In this document: positions 10,589 through 60,224 of the stretch, in pieces | How positions within the stretch are numbered: position 1 is the stretch's first letter | How the letters are laid out: every line of letters starts with the position of its first letter | Notes under the pieces: model-generated | Told to the model about the DNA's origin: nothing | Database searches by the model: none | The model's input: the letters and a program-made list of their open reading frames with translations, nothing else | Program-made: the position numbers and the translations under genes | Assembly (NCBI GenBank): GCA_021841935.1 | Contig: JAKCDL010000001.1 | Location: 133,679 to 197,678, forward strand | Length of the DNA stretch: 64,000 nucleotides | Source: Actinomycetes bacterium | GTDB lineage: Bacteria > Actinomycetota > Acidimicrobiia > Acidimicrobiales > Acidimicrobiaceae | Direction of reading: 5' to 3'

Positions 10589-11233
10589 CTACTCGATGAT
10601 CCCCTCGCGACGAGCAGTCGAGACGGCTTCGAGCATCGAGTGGCACTCTAGCTTCGAGATAATCCTAGCTATGTGGTTACGTGCAGTATTTAGTGAGATG
10701 TTGAGTGACGACGAAATGTCCGATGCGGAGTTCCCTTCATCGAGCATTCTCAGAACTTCGATCTCACGTTTGGTCAAATTGTCTCCGACTCTCTGGCGTC
10801 GACCTGACAAGATCGAGAGGACCTCGGTGGCCATTGAAGGCTCCATCACCGACCTACCTCGAACAGAATCACGTATTCCCCGAATCACATCGTGGAGTGG
10901 AACATCCTTAGTCAAGAAGCCAGCTGCACCGTGGGAGACGGCAAATGCAGCACTTCTAGCATCTCTTACCGCAGTCAAAACTAATATTGCGATGCTTTCG
11001 TCGAGAGAACGAAGGCGTTCAATAACGTCAAGGCCCTCATCTTCTCCCAACCTCATATCCATGAGAACCACGTCGCATCCGCGCGTCGTGATGTAGTTAG
11101 CTGCCTCGTTTCCATCTTTGGCGACGCCGACCACTCGCATATCTGATTGAGTCGAAAGCGCCATTGACATCGTCTCTGCGAAGACAGTATGGTCCTCGAC
11201 GATCAACACTCGGATTGGTTCATCTGGCAACAA
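10589..11233 (-). CDS. NarL/LuxR-family response regulator
   Basis: A two-domain response regulator of 214 residues. The receiver has the acid pocket ...VEDHTVF and phospho-acceptor Asp59 in VVLMDMRLGED; the C-terminal LuxR-type HTH begins at LTKREIEVLRMLDEG and includes SASDISSSLNISLNTARNH. The start is a TTG at 11233 or the next TTG at 11230; GGAGG lies five and eight bases before them. It is divergent from the CHASE3 sensor kinase gene at 11550, its most likely partner. The 316-base gap between them carries repeated ATGAGGT sites that could be its operators. Confidence 0.94.
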   Translation of the reverse strand: MLPDEPIRVLIVEDHTVFAETMSMALSTQSDMRVVGVAKDGNEAANYITTRGCDVVLMDMRLGEDEGLDVIERLRSLDESIAILVLTAVRDARSAAFAVSHGAAGFLTKDVPLHDVIRGIRDSVRGRSVMEPSMATEVLSILSGRRQRVGDNLTKREIEVLRMLDEGNSASDISSSLNISLNTARNHIARIISKLECHSMLEAVSTARREGIIE

Positions 11234-11549
11234 CGGAGCCTCCGACTCGAAAACAATAATCAGCTACAGATGCAAACATCAACTGAAACGAACGCTCGCC
11301 GTAACAAGCGACACAAGAGGACCCCCAACAGCTTTGACTTGTCGAGCCAGCCTATGCCTTCCCCCGAAAAACGGCAAAGATCCGAGACACTCAAAATTAT
11401 ACATCGCATATAGCTAGGATTTATCCCTAATTGAAGTTAATATAGTCATTTTGAATATAACTTGTTTGACTACGATCTGGCTTCTAATTAGTCGCCTGAA
11501 ATGAGGTGCGACGTGGCATACCTCATATTATTTGTTATGAGGTGAGAAG
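11234..11549. promoter_or_regulatory. Divergent regulatory region with three ATGAGGT half-sites
   Basis: This 316-base gap separates the divergent NarL-type regulator and CHASE3 kinase genes. Its right part is AT-rich and contains ATGAGGTG at 11501-11508, the reverse complement ACCTCAT at 11520-11526, and ATGAGGTG again at 11537-11544. The last copy overlaps the ribosome site of the kinase gene. The spaced inverted and direct 7-mers are the kind of site NarL-family regulators use, so feedback control by the adjacent regulator is plausible but inferred. The left part shows no other clear signal. Confidence 0.4.
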
Positions 11550-56189: not shown

Positions 56190-56228
56190 TCCTATCTTTC
56201 TCTTAGCACAGCTAAGAGAAAGATAGGA
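56190..56228 (+). terminator. Perfect 18-bp hairpin after the permease gene
   Basis: Arms 56190-56207 and 56211-56228 are perfectly complementary (TCCTATCTTTCTCTTAGC and its reverse complement) around a 3-base loop ACA. It starts 24 bases after the permease stop. It lacks a T-run, but its strength suggests a transcription terminator or an mRNA 3'-end stabiliser; it may act in both directions. Confidence 0.65.
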
Positions 56229-56251: not shown

Positions 56252-56289
56252 GAAACACCCACCGAGAATTCGATCTCAGTGGGTGTTTC
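56252..56289 (+). terminator. Second hairpin terminator
   Basis: Arms GAAACACCCACCGAG (56252-56266) and CTCAGTGGGTGTTTC (56275-56289) pair over 15 positions with one mismatch, with an 8-base loop, and are followed by TTATT. This is a likely intrinsic terminator behind the first hairpin. Confidence 0.65.
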
Positions 56290-56620: not shown

Positions 56621-57913
56621 ATGAGCGAGATTGAAGTAGCACTCCAAAAGATCATGGGACTAGCTGATATTTACCGTGATTCGAAGCTTATCGTTTCAGC
56701 TACAAATCTACTTAGATCTCTTTTGGAAGCTGAAAACTCACTTTCCAAATCCACTATCGAATTTTTAAGAGCGCTCGGAAATAGCATTGAAGCCTTCCTA
56801 GCGTTGGCTCATTCAGCTGCCGAATCAGAGTATGACGTTCTTATTTGGTTGAATGCAAACGGCATCTTCGACTTCGACCCAAGCATCTCGAATGAAATAC
56901 GTTCAGAGCTCGCAAAAAAATCTCTAACCAACGAAGATTTAGAGCAAGTATCGGAGCAAACGAACTCAATCGTCAAAGAGAACCGATACGACGACCAAGA
57001 CTCAATCGGTCTAACCTCTTCCGAGGTCGATAGGTTAAAAGACCTTGCGCTCAATCCATCGACTTCCACTTCGCAGCTAAGCAGGTTGATCTCGCTTGGA
57101 AATCAAGATCTCAATCGAACGATAGCCTCACTCGAAAAGACGTCCGAAGAAGATCTCCGGGCCTTAGCCAAAAGCCATGAGCCGTCAATCGAGGTGGCAC
57201 TAGTCTCAAGAGGAAGCCTTAGCAACGAACTGTTCCATATAATCAGCGCCTCGCCAACTAGCTACGTTAGGTCGCATCTAGCACGACGCAAAGATCTAAC
57301 GATGGTACAACTTGCCTCCTTGAGCAACGATGTGGCTGCTACTGTGAGAGAGGCTCTTGCTGAAGATAGGTTCTTGCCAGAAGATATTGAGACGAAGCTT
57401 GCTCAAGATCCTGCAAAGTCCGTAAGGTACAGCGTCATTAGGAGCAGACGTGCATCATCCTTAGCCATCAGCACCGCATTTGAATACGATCGAGACGACG
57501 ATCGCATGCTGTTGATGATCGTCGAAAGTGAGAATGTCGACTCAGAAATCCTCTCCGAGGCTTCAAGCCACAGCGACTACGCAATTCGTATCAGAGTCGC
57601 GCGCCACCCCTCTTCGCCAAAGTCAGCACTATGGCGATTGGCCTTAGATGGAGACGAGTCAATTCGCACTGCAGTATCCGTTCATCCGAAAAGTGACGAT
57701 GAAATTTTGCGTCACCTATCGAAAGACTTTTCTCCTCTAGTTCGACGCGGGGTAATCCTAAATCCTCTTACCCCAGATGATCTCATTCTTGATCTAGCGG
57801 ACGACCCGATAGATTGGGTGAAGGACTCTATTCTTGAGCGCAAGAACTTGTCTCGCGATCTAAAAGTAGCTCTTTCCCTCAAGAACGGCACCTTCGAGTG
57901 GCGCGATCTATGA
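56621..57913 (+). CDS. Helical-repeat (leucine-rich-variant/HEAT-like) protein of a MoxR-VWA operon
   Basis: A 430-residue soluble protein. From about residue 145 to the end, units of about 24 residues recur with the pattern hydrophobic-LA-x-D/H-x3-(V/I)-R: for example SYVRSHLARRKDLTMVQLAS, ATVREALAEDRFLPEDIETK, YAIRIRVARHPSSPKSALWR and PLVRRGVILNPLTPDDLI. This resembles leucine-rich-variant or HEAT repeats that form protein-binding solenoids. The N-terminal 140 residues are unrecognised helices. It precedes a MoxR ATPase by 49 bases, followed without a gap by a metallopeptidase/VWA protein. I infer that it is a scaffold or substrate-recognition part of that complex. The ATG is at 56621. Confidence 0.8.
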   Translation: MSEIEVALQKIMGLADIYRDSKLIVSATNLLRSLLEAENSLSKSTIEFLRALGNSIEAFLALAHSAAESEYDVLIWLNANGIFDFDPSISNEIRSELAKKSLTNEDLEQVSEQTNSIVKENRYDDQDSIGLTSSEVDRLKDLALNPSTSTSQLSRLISLGNQDLNRTIASLEKTSEEDLRALAKSHEPSIEVALVSRGSLSNELFHIISASPTSYVRSHLARRKDLTMVQLASLSNDVAATVREALAEDRFLPEDIETKLAQDPAKSVRYSVIRSRRASSLAISTAFEYDRDDDRMLLMIVESENVDSEILSEASSHSDYAIRIRVARHPSSPKSALWRLALDGDESIRTAVSVHPKSDDEILRHLSKDFSPLVRRGVILNPLTPDDLILDLADDPIDWVKDSILERKNLSRDLKVALSLKNGTFEWRDL

Positions 57914-57962
57914 GAAAAAAGCATCACTTCGTATAAATTACCGATAATAGGAGTTCAACAAT

Positions 57963-59054
57963 TTGCGATCATCGAACCTAGCTGCTCTCGAAGTTTTAGT
58001 TGACGCTGGACTACCTACAATCATTTGGGGACCGCCAGGAGTCGGAAAGACTTCGACCATCAAAGCAATTGCGGCGGCCCGGAGCATCGCACTAGAGGTG
58101 GTGATAGCCTCCATTCGAGAACCAAGCGACTTCGCAGGACTGCCAATAAAAGTCGGTGATGGAGTCAGATTTGCACCACCGCAATGGGCGCTTAATATCG
58201 CCGAAAAGGGATCAGGGATAGTATTCTACGATGAGATCTCAAGTGCACCTCCGTCAGTTCAAGCAGCGCTACTAAGACCCATATTGGATGGATTTGTGGG
58301 CGATCTTCAACTTCCTTCTACCGTCATTACACTCGCCGCAGCTAACTATACGGACCTAGCTGCAGGAGGATGGGATCTTACACTTCCCCTGGCAAACAGG
58401 TTTGTTCACCTCGATTGGAGCGTTGATCCAATCGAGATAGCAGAAGGATTTTCGACCGGTTGGAACGAACCGCTTGCAAATCCTGGCTTTCACCTTGATA
58501 AAAACGAAATCTCAAAGGCGCTAGCAACTGTGGGGTCATTTATCGCCACTCGACCAGATTTAGTCCTTCTACTTCCCTCCGATAGCGATGACCGAAGGGC
58601 ATTTCCAACTCCCCGTAGCTGGGAGATGGCTGCACGCATATTGGCGGCATCTGATAGGGCTAAAATACCGTCGTCATTGCGACTGAAACTTCTAAAGGGA
58701 TGCGTAGGTAATGGACCAGCGATAGAACTTGAGGCCTTCTTAGGACAAATTGAGGAGGTCACCCCTGACGAAGTGCTGGAAAATCCTGATAAAGTCTCGA
58801 TTCCAAACGGGAGAAGCGATCTTGTTCACGTGGTGCTTTCCGCCGCTACATCTAAAGTTCGCGCCAGCGAAGATCAGCGTGATTGGTTAGCGCTAGGAAG
58901 GCTAATCGAGCGCATAATTGAACTTGGATATGTCGATGTAGCACTTCATAGCGCAAAGGTGTGGATGGCACTTAGGCCAAAAGGCGCAGTACCACCAACG
59001 TCAACGATTCGCGCCCTCGGACCAATCATGGCCGCAATAAGCGATGACCGCTAG
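57963..59054 (+). CDS. MoxR-like AAA+ ATPase
   Basis: A 363-residue AAA+ ATPase. The Walker A GPPGVGKTS (23-31), Walker B IVFYDE (86-91), sensor 1 LAAANYTD (Asn128) and putative arginine finger LPLANRFVHL (Arg146) are intact. MoxR-type ATPases act as chaperones that remodel VWA-domain partners, and the next gene encodes such a protein. The start is TTG preceded by AGGAG at nine bases. Its stop TAG is immediately followed by the ATG of the next gene, so the two are coupled. Confidence 0.93.
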   Translation: MRSSNLAALEVLVDAGLPTIIWGPPGVGKTSTIKAIAAARSIALEVVIASIREPSDFAGLPIKVGDGVRFAPPQWALNIAEKGSGIVFYDEISSAPPSVQAALLRPILDGFVGDLQLPSTVITLAAANYTDLAAGGWDLTLPLANRFVHLDWSVDPIEIAEGFSTGWNEPLANPGFHLDKNEISKALATVGSFIATRPDLVLLLPSDSDDRRAFPTPRSWEMAARILAASDRAKIPSSLRLKLLKGCVGNGPAIELEAFLGQIEEVTPDEVLENPDKVSIPNGRSDLVHVVLSAATSKVRASEDQRDWLALGRLIERIIELGYVDVALHSAKVWMALRPKGAVPPTSTIRALGPIMAAISDDR

Positions 59055-60224
59055 ATGGCTTTAGTCAACGAGCTCTCAATTAATGCGAAAATCGCTCTTG
59101 CGCGGGCGAAGGCCGTAGATCTCATGCCATATTTGGCAACGGGACTATTCAGGCTTTTCCCGGTGGAGTCAGACCAAACAGATACAATGGCCGTCAGCTC
59201 CGACTGGATATTGCACTACAACCTCAACTTTGTAGAAGAGACGCCCCTAGTAGAGCTGGCCGGGGTACTTATACATGAACTTCACCATTTACTGCAGGGC
59301 CATCAAGAGCGTATGGTTGCATTTGGGGCTGTTGATTCATTCCTTTGGAACATTGCCGCTGACGCCACAATCAACGACAGGCTTCTGGAAAATGGCATAA
59401 AACTACCCCAAACGCCGATAACTTCAAATCTTTTAAACATCAATGGGAGCCTGACCGCAGAAGAGATTTACCTGAAGATAAATGGCCAAAGGGATGACCT
59501 CTTGTCAAGCTTTGGCGAAGTCGACTGCGGTTCATGCGCAGGTGGTAGCCCGAGGAGTTACGAAGTAAAGCATGACGGGGCACCACAAACAGATAGCGAA
59601 GCGCTCTGCCTTGATCTACTAGCTAGAGCCATCATCAAATCCGACAATGCTCCTGCGCACCTTCGTGCGTGGGCGAATGAAAGAGTCAATCCAAAGATCA
59701 ACTGGGTCAGCCTACTGATGCGACAGGTACGCCAGGCCCTTGATCCTGCGGCGAACAAGGATTACGCAATTGGTGGATGGTCAAGGCGCGAAAGCGCCAC
59801 ATTCATCCTTCCTAGCCTAATTCCTAGACATCAGCCAAAAGTAGCTATCGTTGTAGATACGTCGGGCTCAATGGACACCGATGCATTTCAACGAATCATT
59901 ACCGAAATTGCGTCGCTAATTAGGACTCTACATGGGGCTCCGATGACTGTGATCTCTTGCGATGACAGCGTCCGGCTCACGCAAACTATAAGGGATGCTT
60001 CAGCTATCGAGCTAGTCGGAGGAGGCTCCACTGACCTCCGTGTCGGAATTGAGAAAGCTGCGCAAATCAAGCCTGCGCCAGATGTAATTGTCGTTATGAC
60101 TGATGGCCTTTCCCTATGGCCAAAGCAAAACCCATCACGCAAATCCAAGGTCGTAATCGTTCTCACGTCAGATGAGATAGAGACGCCAAATTGGGCTACA
60201 TCTATTCGAATAACTCAAAGTTAG
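59055..60224 (+). CDS. DUF2201-type metallopeptidase-like / VWA-domain protein
   Basis: A 389-residue two-part protein. The N-terminal region has HELHH at 74-78 (an HExxH zinc motif) in GVLIHELHHLLQGH, followed by WNIAADATIND, as in DUF2201_N metallopeptidase-like domains. A middle linker with Cys158, Cys161 (CGSC) leads to a C-terminal VWA-like domain with the MIDAS motif DTSGS (268-272), then GGGSTD and VVMTDG. VWA domains partner MoxR ATPases. Its start ATG touches the ATPase stop codon. The C-terminus ends at 60224 with ordinary coding sequence. Whether it cleaves protein is not known. Confidence 0.9.
   Translation: MALVNELSINAKIALARAKAVDLMPYLATGLFRLFPVESDQTDTMAVSSDWILHYNLNFVEETPLVELAGVLIHELHHLLQGHQERMVAFGAVDSFLWNIAADATINDRLLENGIKLPQTPITSNLLNINGSLTAEEIYLKINGQRDDLLSSFGEVDCGSCAGGSPRSYEVKHDGAPQTDSEALCLDLLARAIIKSDNAPAHLRAWANERVNPKINWVSLLMRQVRQALDPAANKDYAIGGWSRRESATFILPSLIPRHQPKVAIVVDTSGSMDTDAFQRIITEIASLIRTLHGAPMTVISCDDSVRLTQTIRDASAIELVGGGSTDLRVGIEKAAQIKPAPDVIVVMTDGLSLWPKQNPSRKSKVVIVLTSDEIETPNWATSIRITQS

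Follow-up and report, generated by a model that had tools for sequence, protein, structure and literature searches.

Do three genes packed on the plus strand at positions 56621 to 60224 of a 64,000-nucleotide stretch of actinomycete DNA (the window) form one system, and what would such a system do? Gene 1 codes for a helical-repeat solenoid protein of the LRV family, gene 2 for an AAA+ ATPase, and gene 3 for a protein in which a DUF2201 zinc-metallopeptidase-like domain is followed by a VWA domain. A first-pass annotation of the window had described them as a self-contained machine with no named counterpart. The trio is interpreted here, with a confidence that falls somewhat short of an even chance, as an accessory, horizontally moving, ATP-driven machine for protein remodelling (or a protease), in which the solenoid selects the target.

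A conserved unit of three genes

The identical three-gene order is present in five genomes of three genera and two families: the genome of the window (G000, an assembly 87% complete, on whose contig C25 the window lies), three others of its family (G001, G008 and G012) and one from another family of the same order (G778). Within the window's family, trios were found in four of 42 genomes and DUF2201 in five of 42, four of these being the trios; the fifth (in G010) breaks off where its contig stops and shows 29% identity over 242 residues, and its genome gives no match to gene 1. The intergenic spacers in the four trios with clear ends run from -11 to 58 nt. Pairwise identities across the trios correlate at 0.977 between genes 1 and 2, 0.991 between genes 1 and 3, and 0.995 between genes 2 and 3, values that come from ten pairs of five genomes and are not independent, so that p-values for them carry no weight. 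Gene 1 encodes the least conserved of the three proteins in all ten pairs; between G000 and G008, genes 1, 2 and 3 are 40, 66 and 50% identical, and the upstream permease 94%.

In a DUF2201 tree of 41 rows (the window plus 40 of 53 usable stretches, near-copies and a few others having been removed by hand, with no phage rows), the five trios are one branch with support 95/84, recovered in 96% of 200 bootstrap trees and nested in a branch that is actinobacterial except for one myxococcal row. Inside it, G012, which belongs to the window's family, is the sister of G778 from the other family (100/100) and not of the window's genus, which makes transfer likely. Other members of the order group in this tree with a named Acidimicrobiales MAG, so that the order is probably Acidimicrobiales. 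The trio is thus one conserved, co-diverging unit and, because it forms one clade that diverges in step and whose tree is at odds with the taxonomy, it seems from the sequences to move among genomes as a unit. The joint neighbourhood search therefore bears out the earlier proposal that the three genes form a set (five genomes, r 0.98-0.99, one clade).

It might be thought that the LRV gene is simply an unrelated neighbour of an ordinary ATPase-DUF2201 pair, as the order is rich in LRV genes (the gene 1 profile matches 49 of 397 sampled genomes, with more than 300 bits only in G008, G000 and G778) and 32 of the 33 inspected LRV loci have no such pair alongside, the exception being G778. However, the adjacency persists in five genomes from two families whose flanks have no long stretch in common, and the genes co-diverge, so that a chance association is very improbable and was rejected. 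LRV proteins are numerous elsewhere in the order (L046-L058 and L160-L178; L-numbers denote loci taken from relatives' genomes), where they do not adjoin AAA or VWA genes, and for the LRV protein on contig C2 of G000 the G001 and G008 counterparts match the same stretch.

The genes and their products

The features of the locus are listed below by window coordinates; the three open reading frames (ORFs) are exactly where the first-pass annotation had placed three packed plus-strand genes.

56252..56289, no strand: hairpin with 16-nt arms, 94% complementary, 3' of the permease, likely its terminator and parting the permease from the trio
56621..57913, plus strand: gene 1, 430 amino acids (aa), LRV/HEAT-like solenoid protein (ORF, Pfam LRV, AlphaFold model)
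57017..57883, plus strand: coding region of the predicted LRV solenoid (residues 133-421; AlphaFold model, helix count)
57963..59054, plus strand: gene 2, 363 aa, AAA+ ATPase of the MoxR/NorQ/CbbQ/midasin kind, TTG start (ORF, Pfam, PHROG 1297, PDB)
58029..58052, plus strand: Walker A motif GPPGVGKT, residues 23-30 (G23, P25, G26, G28 and K29 invariant in 7/7 aligned sequences)
58230..58235, plus strand: Walker B residues D90-E91 (invariant in 7/7 aligned sequences)
59055..60224, plus strand: gene 3, 389 aa, DUF2201_N zinc-metallopeptidase-like domain (about 11-237) and C-terminal VWA domain (about 259-389) (ORF, Pfam)
59274..59288, plus strand: HELHH zinc motif, residues 74-78 (H74 and H78 in 54/54, E75 in 41/54)
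59361..59363, plus strand: D103, the presumed third zinc ligand (invariant, 54/54)
59856..59870, plus strand: metal-ion-dependent adhesion site (MIDAS) DTSGS, residues 268-272, completed by T326 and D350 (conservation count)

Genes 1 and 2 are separated by 49 nt. The TTG start of gene 2 is preceded by AGGAG (57949-57953), 9 nt 5' of it, and the gene 2 stop codon, TAG at 59052-59054, abuts the ATG of gene 3 at 59055, as had been noted before.

Pfam places LRV and LRV_2, and no other family, on gene 1. The LRV match (PF01816) has an E-value of 3.7e-7, the whole-protein score passing the cut-off and the single repeats each being not significant; in the G012 ortholog it is as strong as 1.5e-20, and the orthologs give LRV plus HEAT-like matches and otherwise weak noise. 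The AlphaFold model has a pLDDT mostly above 90 across residues 133-421, which comprise 11 two-helix repeats (22 helices), and is helical with low confidence over residues 1-130, so that in the model the PF01816 repeats form a two-helix solenoid. The earlier description of an LRV/HEAT-like repeat protein agrees with both the Pfam match and this confidently predicted solenoid. Foldseek returned as top matches only generic HEAT/ARM-type solenoids (TMq 0.11-0.36), the PDB sequence search nothing useful, and PADLOC a GajB match (0.0038) with no backing from Pfam, NCBIfam or PHROGs.

Gene 2 passes the Pfam cut-offs for AAA (1.2e-6) and AAA_5 (1.5e-5). With 25.4 bits for AAA_5 (cut-off 22) and 20.9 bits for AAA_3, the model of MoxR proper (cut-off 27), it is nearer to AAA_5 members than to MoxR proper, a nuance to be added to the first-pass call of a complete MoxR-type ATPase, which is otherwise sound. 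GPPGVGKT, FYDE, the sensor-1 N and the Arg finger can be read in its sequence, and Walker A, Walker B, sensor 1 and the Arg finger, whose roles are those generally known for AAA+ proteins, are intact and invariant in 7/7 sequences. PHROG 1297 ('ATPase') matches at 1.1e-48, the closest solved relative by sequence in the PDB is midasin, and the PADLOC matches (best 0.0024, range 0.0024-0.098) cover the P-loop stretch only.

Gene 3 holds both DUF2201_N (PF13203, 2.6e-29) and the VWA-like DUF2201 domain (PF09967, 7.8e-19), and PHROG 1314 matches it over nearly its full length (1.6e-47). Its residues were counted in 54 sequences, the window plus the 53 usable DUF2201 stretches; L077, L078 and some other weak DUF2201 loci are below the E-value or length limit and stand outside both the counts and the tree. 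The 41 rows of the tree include the same 13 sequences without the catalytic Glu (E75) as the full count. D268, S270, S272 and D350 of the MIDAS are present in 54/54 and T326 in 53/54, and the combination of HELHH with a VWA domain bearing an intact DTSGS is confirmed by the motifs as read and by DUF2201 domains past the cut-off. PADLOC has no match for gene 3 and the PDB sequence search gave nothing useful; in the PDB profile search the zinc domain weakly matches M48-type peptidases (0.0012 and worse), too weakly for a fold to be assigned. VIA-align placed 50 rows on the VWA half, one of them reaching back to residue 227, so that the N-terminal half was barely tested. Gene 3 is the sole DUF2201 protein found in G000.

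Upstream of the trio, an amino-acid permease gene ends at about 56166, and the hairpin that follows it, which the consensus terminator scan missed, is separated from gene 1 by a spacer of about 330 nt. This spacer is the only basis for the promoter region that the first-pass annotation had granted the set, a claim that is not upheld: promoter-like matches number 3 versus 5.4 in shuffles, and the terminator scan is likewise below its shuffles. Just 3' of the permease, before the hairpin, there is also a perfect 18-nt inverted repeat with a 3-nt loop (56190-56228). Downstream of the trio, on the opposite strand, are genes for a histidine kinase and a response regulator.

Genomic surroundings and relatives of the pair

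The trio sits in a segment that is absent from the matching place in the close relative G008. A comparison of 223 kb of contig C25 of G000 with 159 kb of contig C40 of G008 showed collinear flanks with a DNA identity of about 70-86%, and the interval from the permease end (C25:189843, window position about 56165) to C25:210316 is 20.5 kb in G000 versus 746 bp in G008. In G008 the tRNA-Ala(CGC) gene is within the 746-bp gap. In G000 it occupies C25:209753-209828, which puts almost the whole of the additional sequence between the permease and the tRNA; a tRNA search at the permease loci of six other relatives found none, and this tRNA edge is therefore seen only in G000 and G008. Beside the tRNA-Ala of G000 there is a 134-aa integrase-like fragment (phrog_95, 4.1e-5, positions 460-565 of 651, no Pfam match), and 1.4 kb from the tRNA a Mrr-type restriction endonuclease (1.1e-13); at this far edge of the segment, the nuclease occupies 10723-11322 and the fragment 12249-12653 of L187 (G000:C25, about 207.7-209.7 kb). 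ABC-transporter and two-component genes are also carried inside, and the segment need not be a single island.

G008 carries its own trio on a different contig, some 2 kb away from cas9, which is followed by cas1 and cas2; an array with a 64-nt period begins about 40 nt after cas2 and extends for about 5 kb (34 or 42-43 copies in separate counts). The cas9-cas1-cas2 operon and the array, on contig C25 of G008, are in L040 (9154-16000) and L202 (1-2900), with more than 70 copies over the two stretches. When the flanks retrieved for the five trios were compared by tblastx, no long match appeared outside the trio except for a 0.7-kb upstream stretch common to G001 and G008; the many short, scattered matches between the high-GC sequences of G012 and G778 were treated as noise. 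In G008, this 0.7-kb stretch is an antitoxin-like gene (MazE_antitoxin in Pfam), together with a piece that resembles, by eye only, the end of a PIN toxin.

The ATPase-DUF2201 pair is far more widespread than the trio. Of 396 genomes from the phylum, 31 (the window's among them) have DUF2201_N, and at the phylum loci examined (20 of 46 places) the ATPase adjoins DUF2201 in 19, preceding it in 17 and following it in two weak-scoring ones (L077 and L078); L075 is without an ATPase. A wider scan of genome contigs gave at least 80 loci, of which L079-L112 (34) were examined and 46 weaker ones (L113-L158) left out. These 34 span at least six phyla (Actinomycetota, Myxococcota, Verrucomicrobiota, Pseudomonadota, Thermodesulfobacteriota and Bacillota) and, among the matches listed, 31 have both genes and the other three the ATPase only. 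The gene 1 profile found an LRV gene, again among the matches listed, at 0 of these 54 non-trio loci (20 from the phylum, 34 from the wider scan); in 47 of them the sequence reaches 1.5 kb or more beyond the ATPase match on its upstream side, six are truncated, and L075 has no ATPase. No function for the MoxR-like/DUF2201 pair in bacteria was found in the open-licence literature searched.

Third genes of other kinds were found by clustering the ORFs within 4 kb of the pair; as high-GC genes were called from ORFs and codon-position GC only, their exact ends are unsure. Streptomyces-like loci (so named from tree position) have a same-strand gene upstream of the pair in eight cases, of 462-514 aa in six; Acidimicrobiales-like loci without the catalytic Glu have a gene downstream in six, of 259-325 aa in five; and in three Clostridia loci an upstream gene of 875-1182 aa ends at the ATPase start. 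Both scanned Clostridia third genes (L105 and L108) code for SNF2/ResIII helicases according to Pfam, and the L105 helicase matches phage DarB-like antirestriction proteins (2.1e-243). Apart from these helicases and ankyrin repeats in L066, Pfam gave no family past the cut-off for the scanned third proteins of other lineages. The Clostridia genes (L105 4432-7890, L107 5269-7896, L108 4343-7891) may represent a sister system. The long ORF of L066 (10641-13727) has its ankyrin repeats near the ATPase end and would be, if the frame is real, another solenoid in the place of the third gene. Ten Glu-less actinobacterial DUF2201 proteins, which keep all the zinc ligands, are one branch (L042, L043, L044, L059, L060, L062, L083, L079, L081 and L082), and a downstream gene of unknown family is common to six of L042, L043, L044, L059, L060, L062 and L083.

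A search of 50,697 phage records also gave gene 3 relatives in 199. The six phage loci that were read all have HExxH, and their ATPase is upstream on the same strand, with 1-7 genes between; in the N4-like phages LIT1 and SBP1 a DNA helicase comes after the pair, with a DNA polymerase a few genes further along. N4 gp24 and gp25, labelled 'unknown' and 'vWFA domain', are two of the 14 core genes of N4-like phages (PMC4193335), and a pair of MoxR and metallopeptidase-vWA proteins in jumbo phages is proposed by Iyer et al. to act in virion assembly (PMC7824862). Gene 1 had no tblastn match at 0.01 in the 50,697 phage records, and its profile scan of viral contigs gave 48 pattern matches with 0 confirmed, a weak second negative in that it used two short patterns only; the presence of the whole trio in phages was therefore rejected. 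In phrog_1314 and several records (H6, H14, H17 and H35), the DUF2201 metallopeptidase-VWA proteins of phages bear the name 'HNH endonuclease', a label that looks misplaced, as a separate HNH gene adjoins the DUF2201 gene in SBP1.

Function and comparison with known systems

By analogy with MoxR-VWA systems, gene 2 would form a hexameric ring, on which the VWA domain of gene 3 would dock, as in NorQD, and grip a client through the MIDAS metal; ATP hydrolysis would then pull or twist the client. The solenoid of gene 1 may act as a lineage-specific adaptor that chooses the client or senses a trigger and, since the full HExxH is kept in the trios, the N-terminal zinc domain of gene 3 may cut the client presented to it. 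The use of the trio is most likely conditional (stress or conflict with mobile elements) rather than housekeeping. Several points weigh against such a remodelling machine. No phenotype, client or activity is on record for the trio; trios number just five, with a single gene order; the conflict in the tree could in principle reflect old duplication and loss, and weak constraint, as opposed to a recognition role, could explain why gene 1 changes faster. Just one relative (G008) polarises the insertion, and a repeat marking an attachment site was sought at the tRNA-Ala edge and not found. The flank ORFs scanned in G012 (6), G778 (3) and G001 (5, two of them without a match past the cut-off) are of ordinary kinds, to do with metabolism, regulation, transport or the surface. 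Finally, the catalytic Glu (E75) is missing in 13 of 54 relatives in which the zinc ligands are invariant (54/54), which means that the family does not have cleavage as its common function. The earlier suggestion that the metallopeptidase acts on the target is for this reason uncertain, although the complete motif in 5/5 trios speaks for it; in the Glu-less part of the family, to judge from its residues, the zinc domain is left with the role of a binding or stator domain that zinc stabilises.

The loss of Glu with retention of the zinc ligands would suit a maturation chaperone of the NorQD, CbbQO or RavA-ViaA kind, which opens a client for the insertion of metal or cofactor with neither proteolysis nor a conflict role, the zinc domain being a binding or stator part and the solenoid a client adaptor. 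Maturation systems of the NorQD/CbbQO type have a constant client gene beside the pair. None was found by tblastx in the flanking sequence retrieved for the five trios, which have no long neighbouring gene in common; this, together with the patchy presence, the mobility and the Glu kept in every trio, makes the chaperone rather unlikely, even though the MoxR-VWA pairs of tested function work in this way (PMC9976466). Patchiness and mobility speak for a defence against mobile elements, in which a protein from a phage or plasmid would be sensed by the solenoid, whereupon the ATPase, together with the metallopeptidase-VWA protein, would inactivate either it or a protein of the host. The G008 copy near CRISPR-Cas9 genes and beside an antitoxin-like gene, the Mrr-type nuclease that shares the variable segment with the trio in G000, and the ternary MoxR-VWA systems proposed as conflict systems (PMC7159879) are also in its favour. 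However, no PADLOC family fits (the best, at 0.0024, being the gene 2 P-loop), the scanned flank genes of G012, G778 and G001 are not defence genes, and phages themselves carry the pair. A defence role, resting on context in one or two of the five loci, is thus possible, and defence as the explanation of the trio is unlikely; what stands of the first-pass idea of a conflict or stress system is circumstantial (mobility, the CRISPR-Cas9 neighbour and the nuclease), set against ordinary flanks in the other three genomes.

That phages carry the pair raises a further explanation, in which a phage replication or virion-assembly pair was taken over by the host and given a new adaptor. In its favour are the 199 phage records, the core status of gp24/gp25 and the position of the pair shortly before helicase and polymerase genes in two N4-like phages, the helicases in both scanned Clostridia loci, one of them DarB-related, and the virion-assembly role proposed for the jumbo-phage pair. 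This domestication is quite unlikely, since the trios lie within an actinobacterial branch bar one myxococcal row (in a tree without phage rows), gene 1 is in no phage record (the viral-contig scan adding little) and no phage structural gene is among the scanned flank genes. The remodelling machine that we favour has a broader interest: the MoxR-like/DUF2201 pair takes in two core genes of N4-like phages (PMC4193335) and is also spread over at least six bacterial phyla, and the trio offers a compact handle on it, a mobile unit in which the pair is linked to a subunit that is a candidate for recognising the target. Should the third gene indeed determine what is targeted, the family would be a modular, possibly proteolytic motor directed at different targets in different lineages.

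CbbQ/CbbO and RavA/ViaA resemble the trio in combining an AAA+ ring with a MIDAS-bearing VWA protein for client remodelling. Neither these nor NorQ/NorD are known to have a DUF2201 domain or an LRV partner, and all three act on a known client enzyme, unlike the trio. NorQ/NorD shares with it the AAA+ ring, the VWA protein with MIDAS and the remodelling of a client; a model of NorQD places a VWA 'finger' in the pore of the ring, and its MIDAS is presumed to be the client-binding site (PMC9976466). The N4 gp24/gp25 and jumbo-phage pairs are like genes 2 and 3 in family (PHROG 1297, PHROG 1314) and differ in having 1-7 genes between the partners and no LRV gene in the six loci read.

A similar architecture is that of the published MoxR-vWA ternary conflict systems, with the classes VMAP, iSTAND, FtsH and beta-propeller (Kaur et al. 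2020, PMC7159879). Like the trio, they consist of a MoxR ATPase, a vWA protein and a third constant protein, the presumed trigger sensor. In the trio, by contrast, the third protein is an LRV solenoid and the vWA domain is C-terminal to the DUF2201 domain, whereas the vWA protein of the ternary systems carries variable C-terminal effectors, as described there. Membership in these four classes is excluded by gene 1, which gives LRV/LRV_2 only, and the defence systems listed in PADLOC are excluded as well (a P-loop match for gene 2, an unbacked GajB for gene 1, none for gene 3). The profile libraries hold no named system for the trio and the open-licence literature no paper by title or abstract; the earlier statement that the set cannot be matched holds for the trio and not for the pair, which is the MoxR-like/DUF2201 pair of N4 and jumbo phages.

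The Streptomyces-like, Glu-less and Clostridia operons have the pair and its order as in the trio, with a different third gene. It is a doubtful possibility that these all belong to a fifth MoxR-VWA ternary class, in which a DUF2201-VWA protein loaded by the ring would be combined with a swappable, target-setting third gene (LRV here, an SNF2/DarB-like helicase in Clostridia, others in the Streptomyces-like and Acidimicrobiales-like loci) as a plug-in, ATP-powered, possibly proteolytic, immune or anti-mobile-element system, with a stripped form in phages. The ATPase-DUF2201 pair is known already, and the LRV gene is the addition that makes the trio a new variant of the MoxR-VWA systems.

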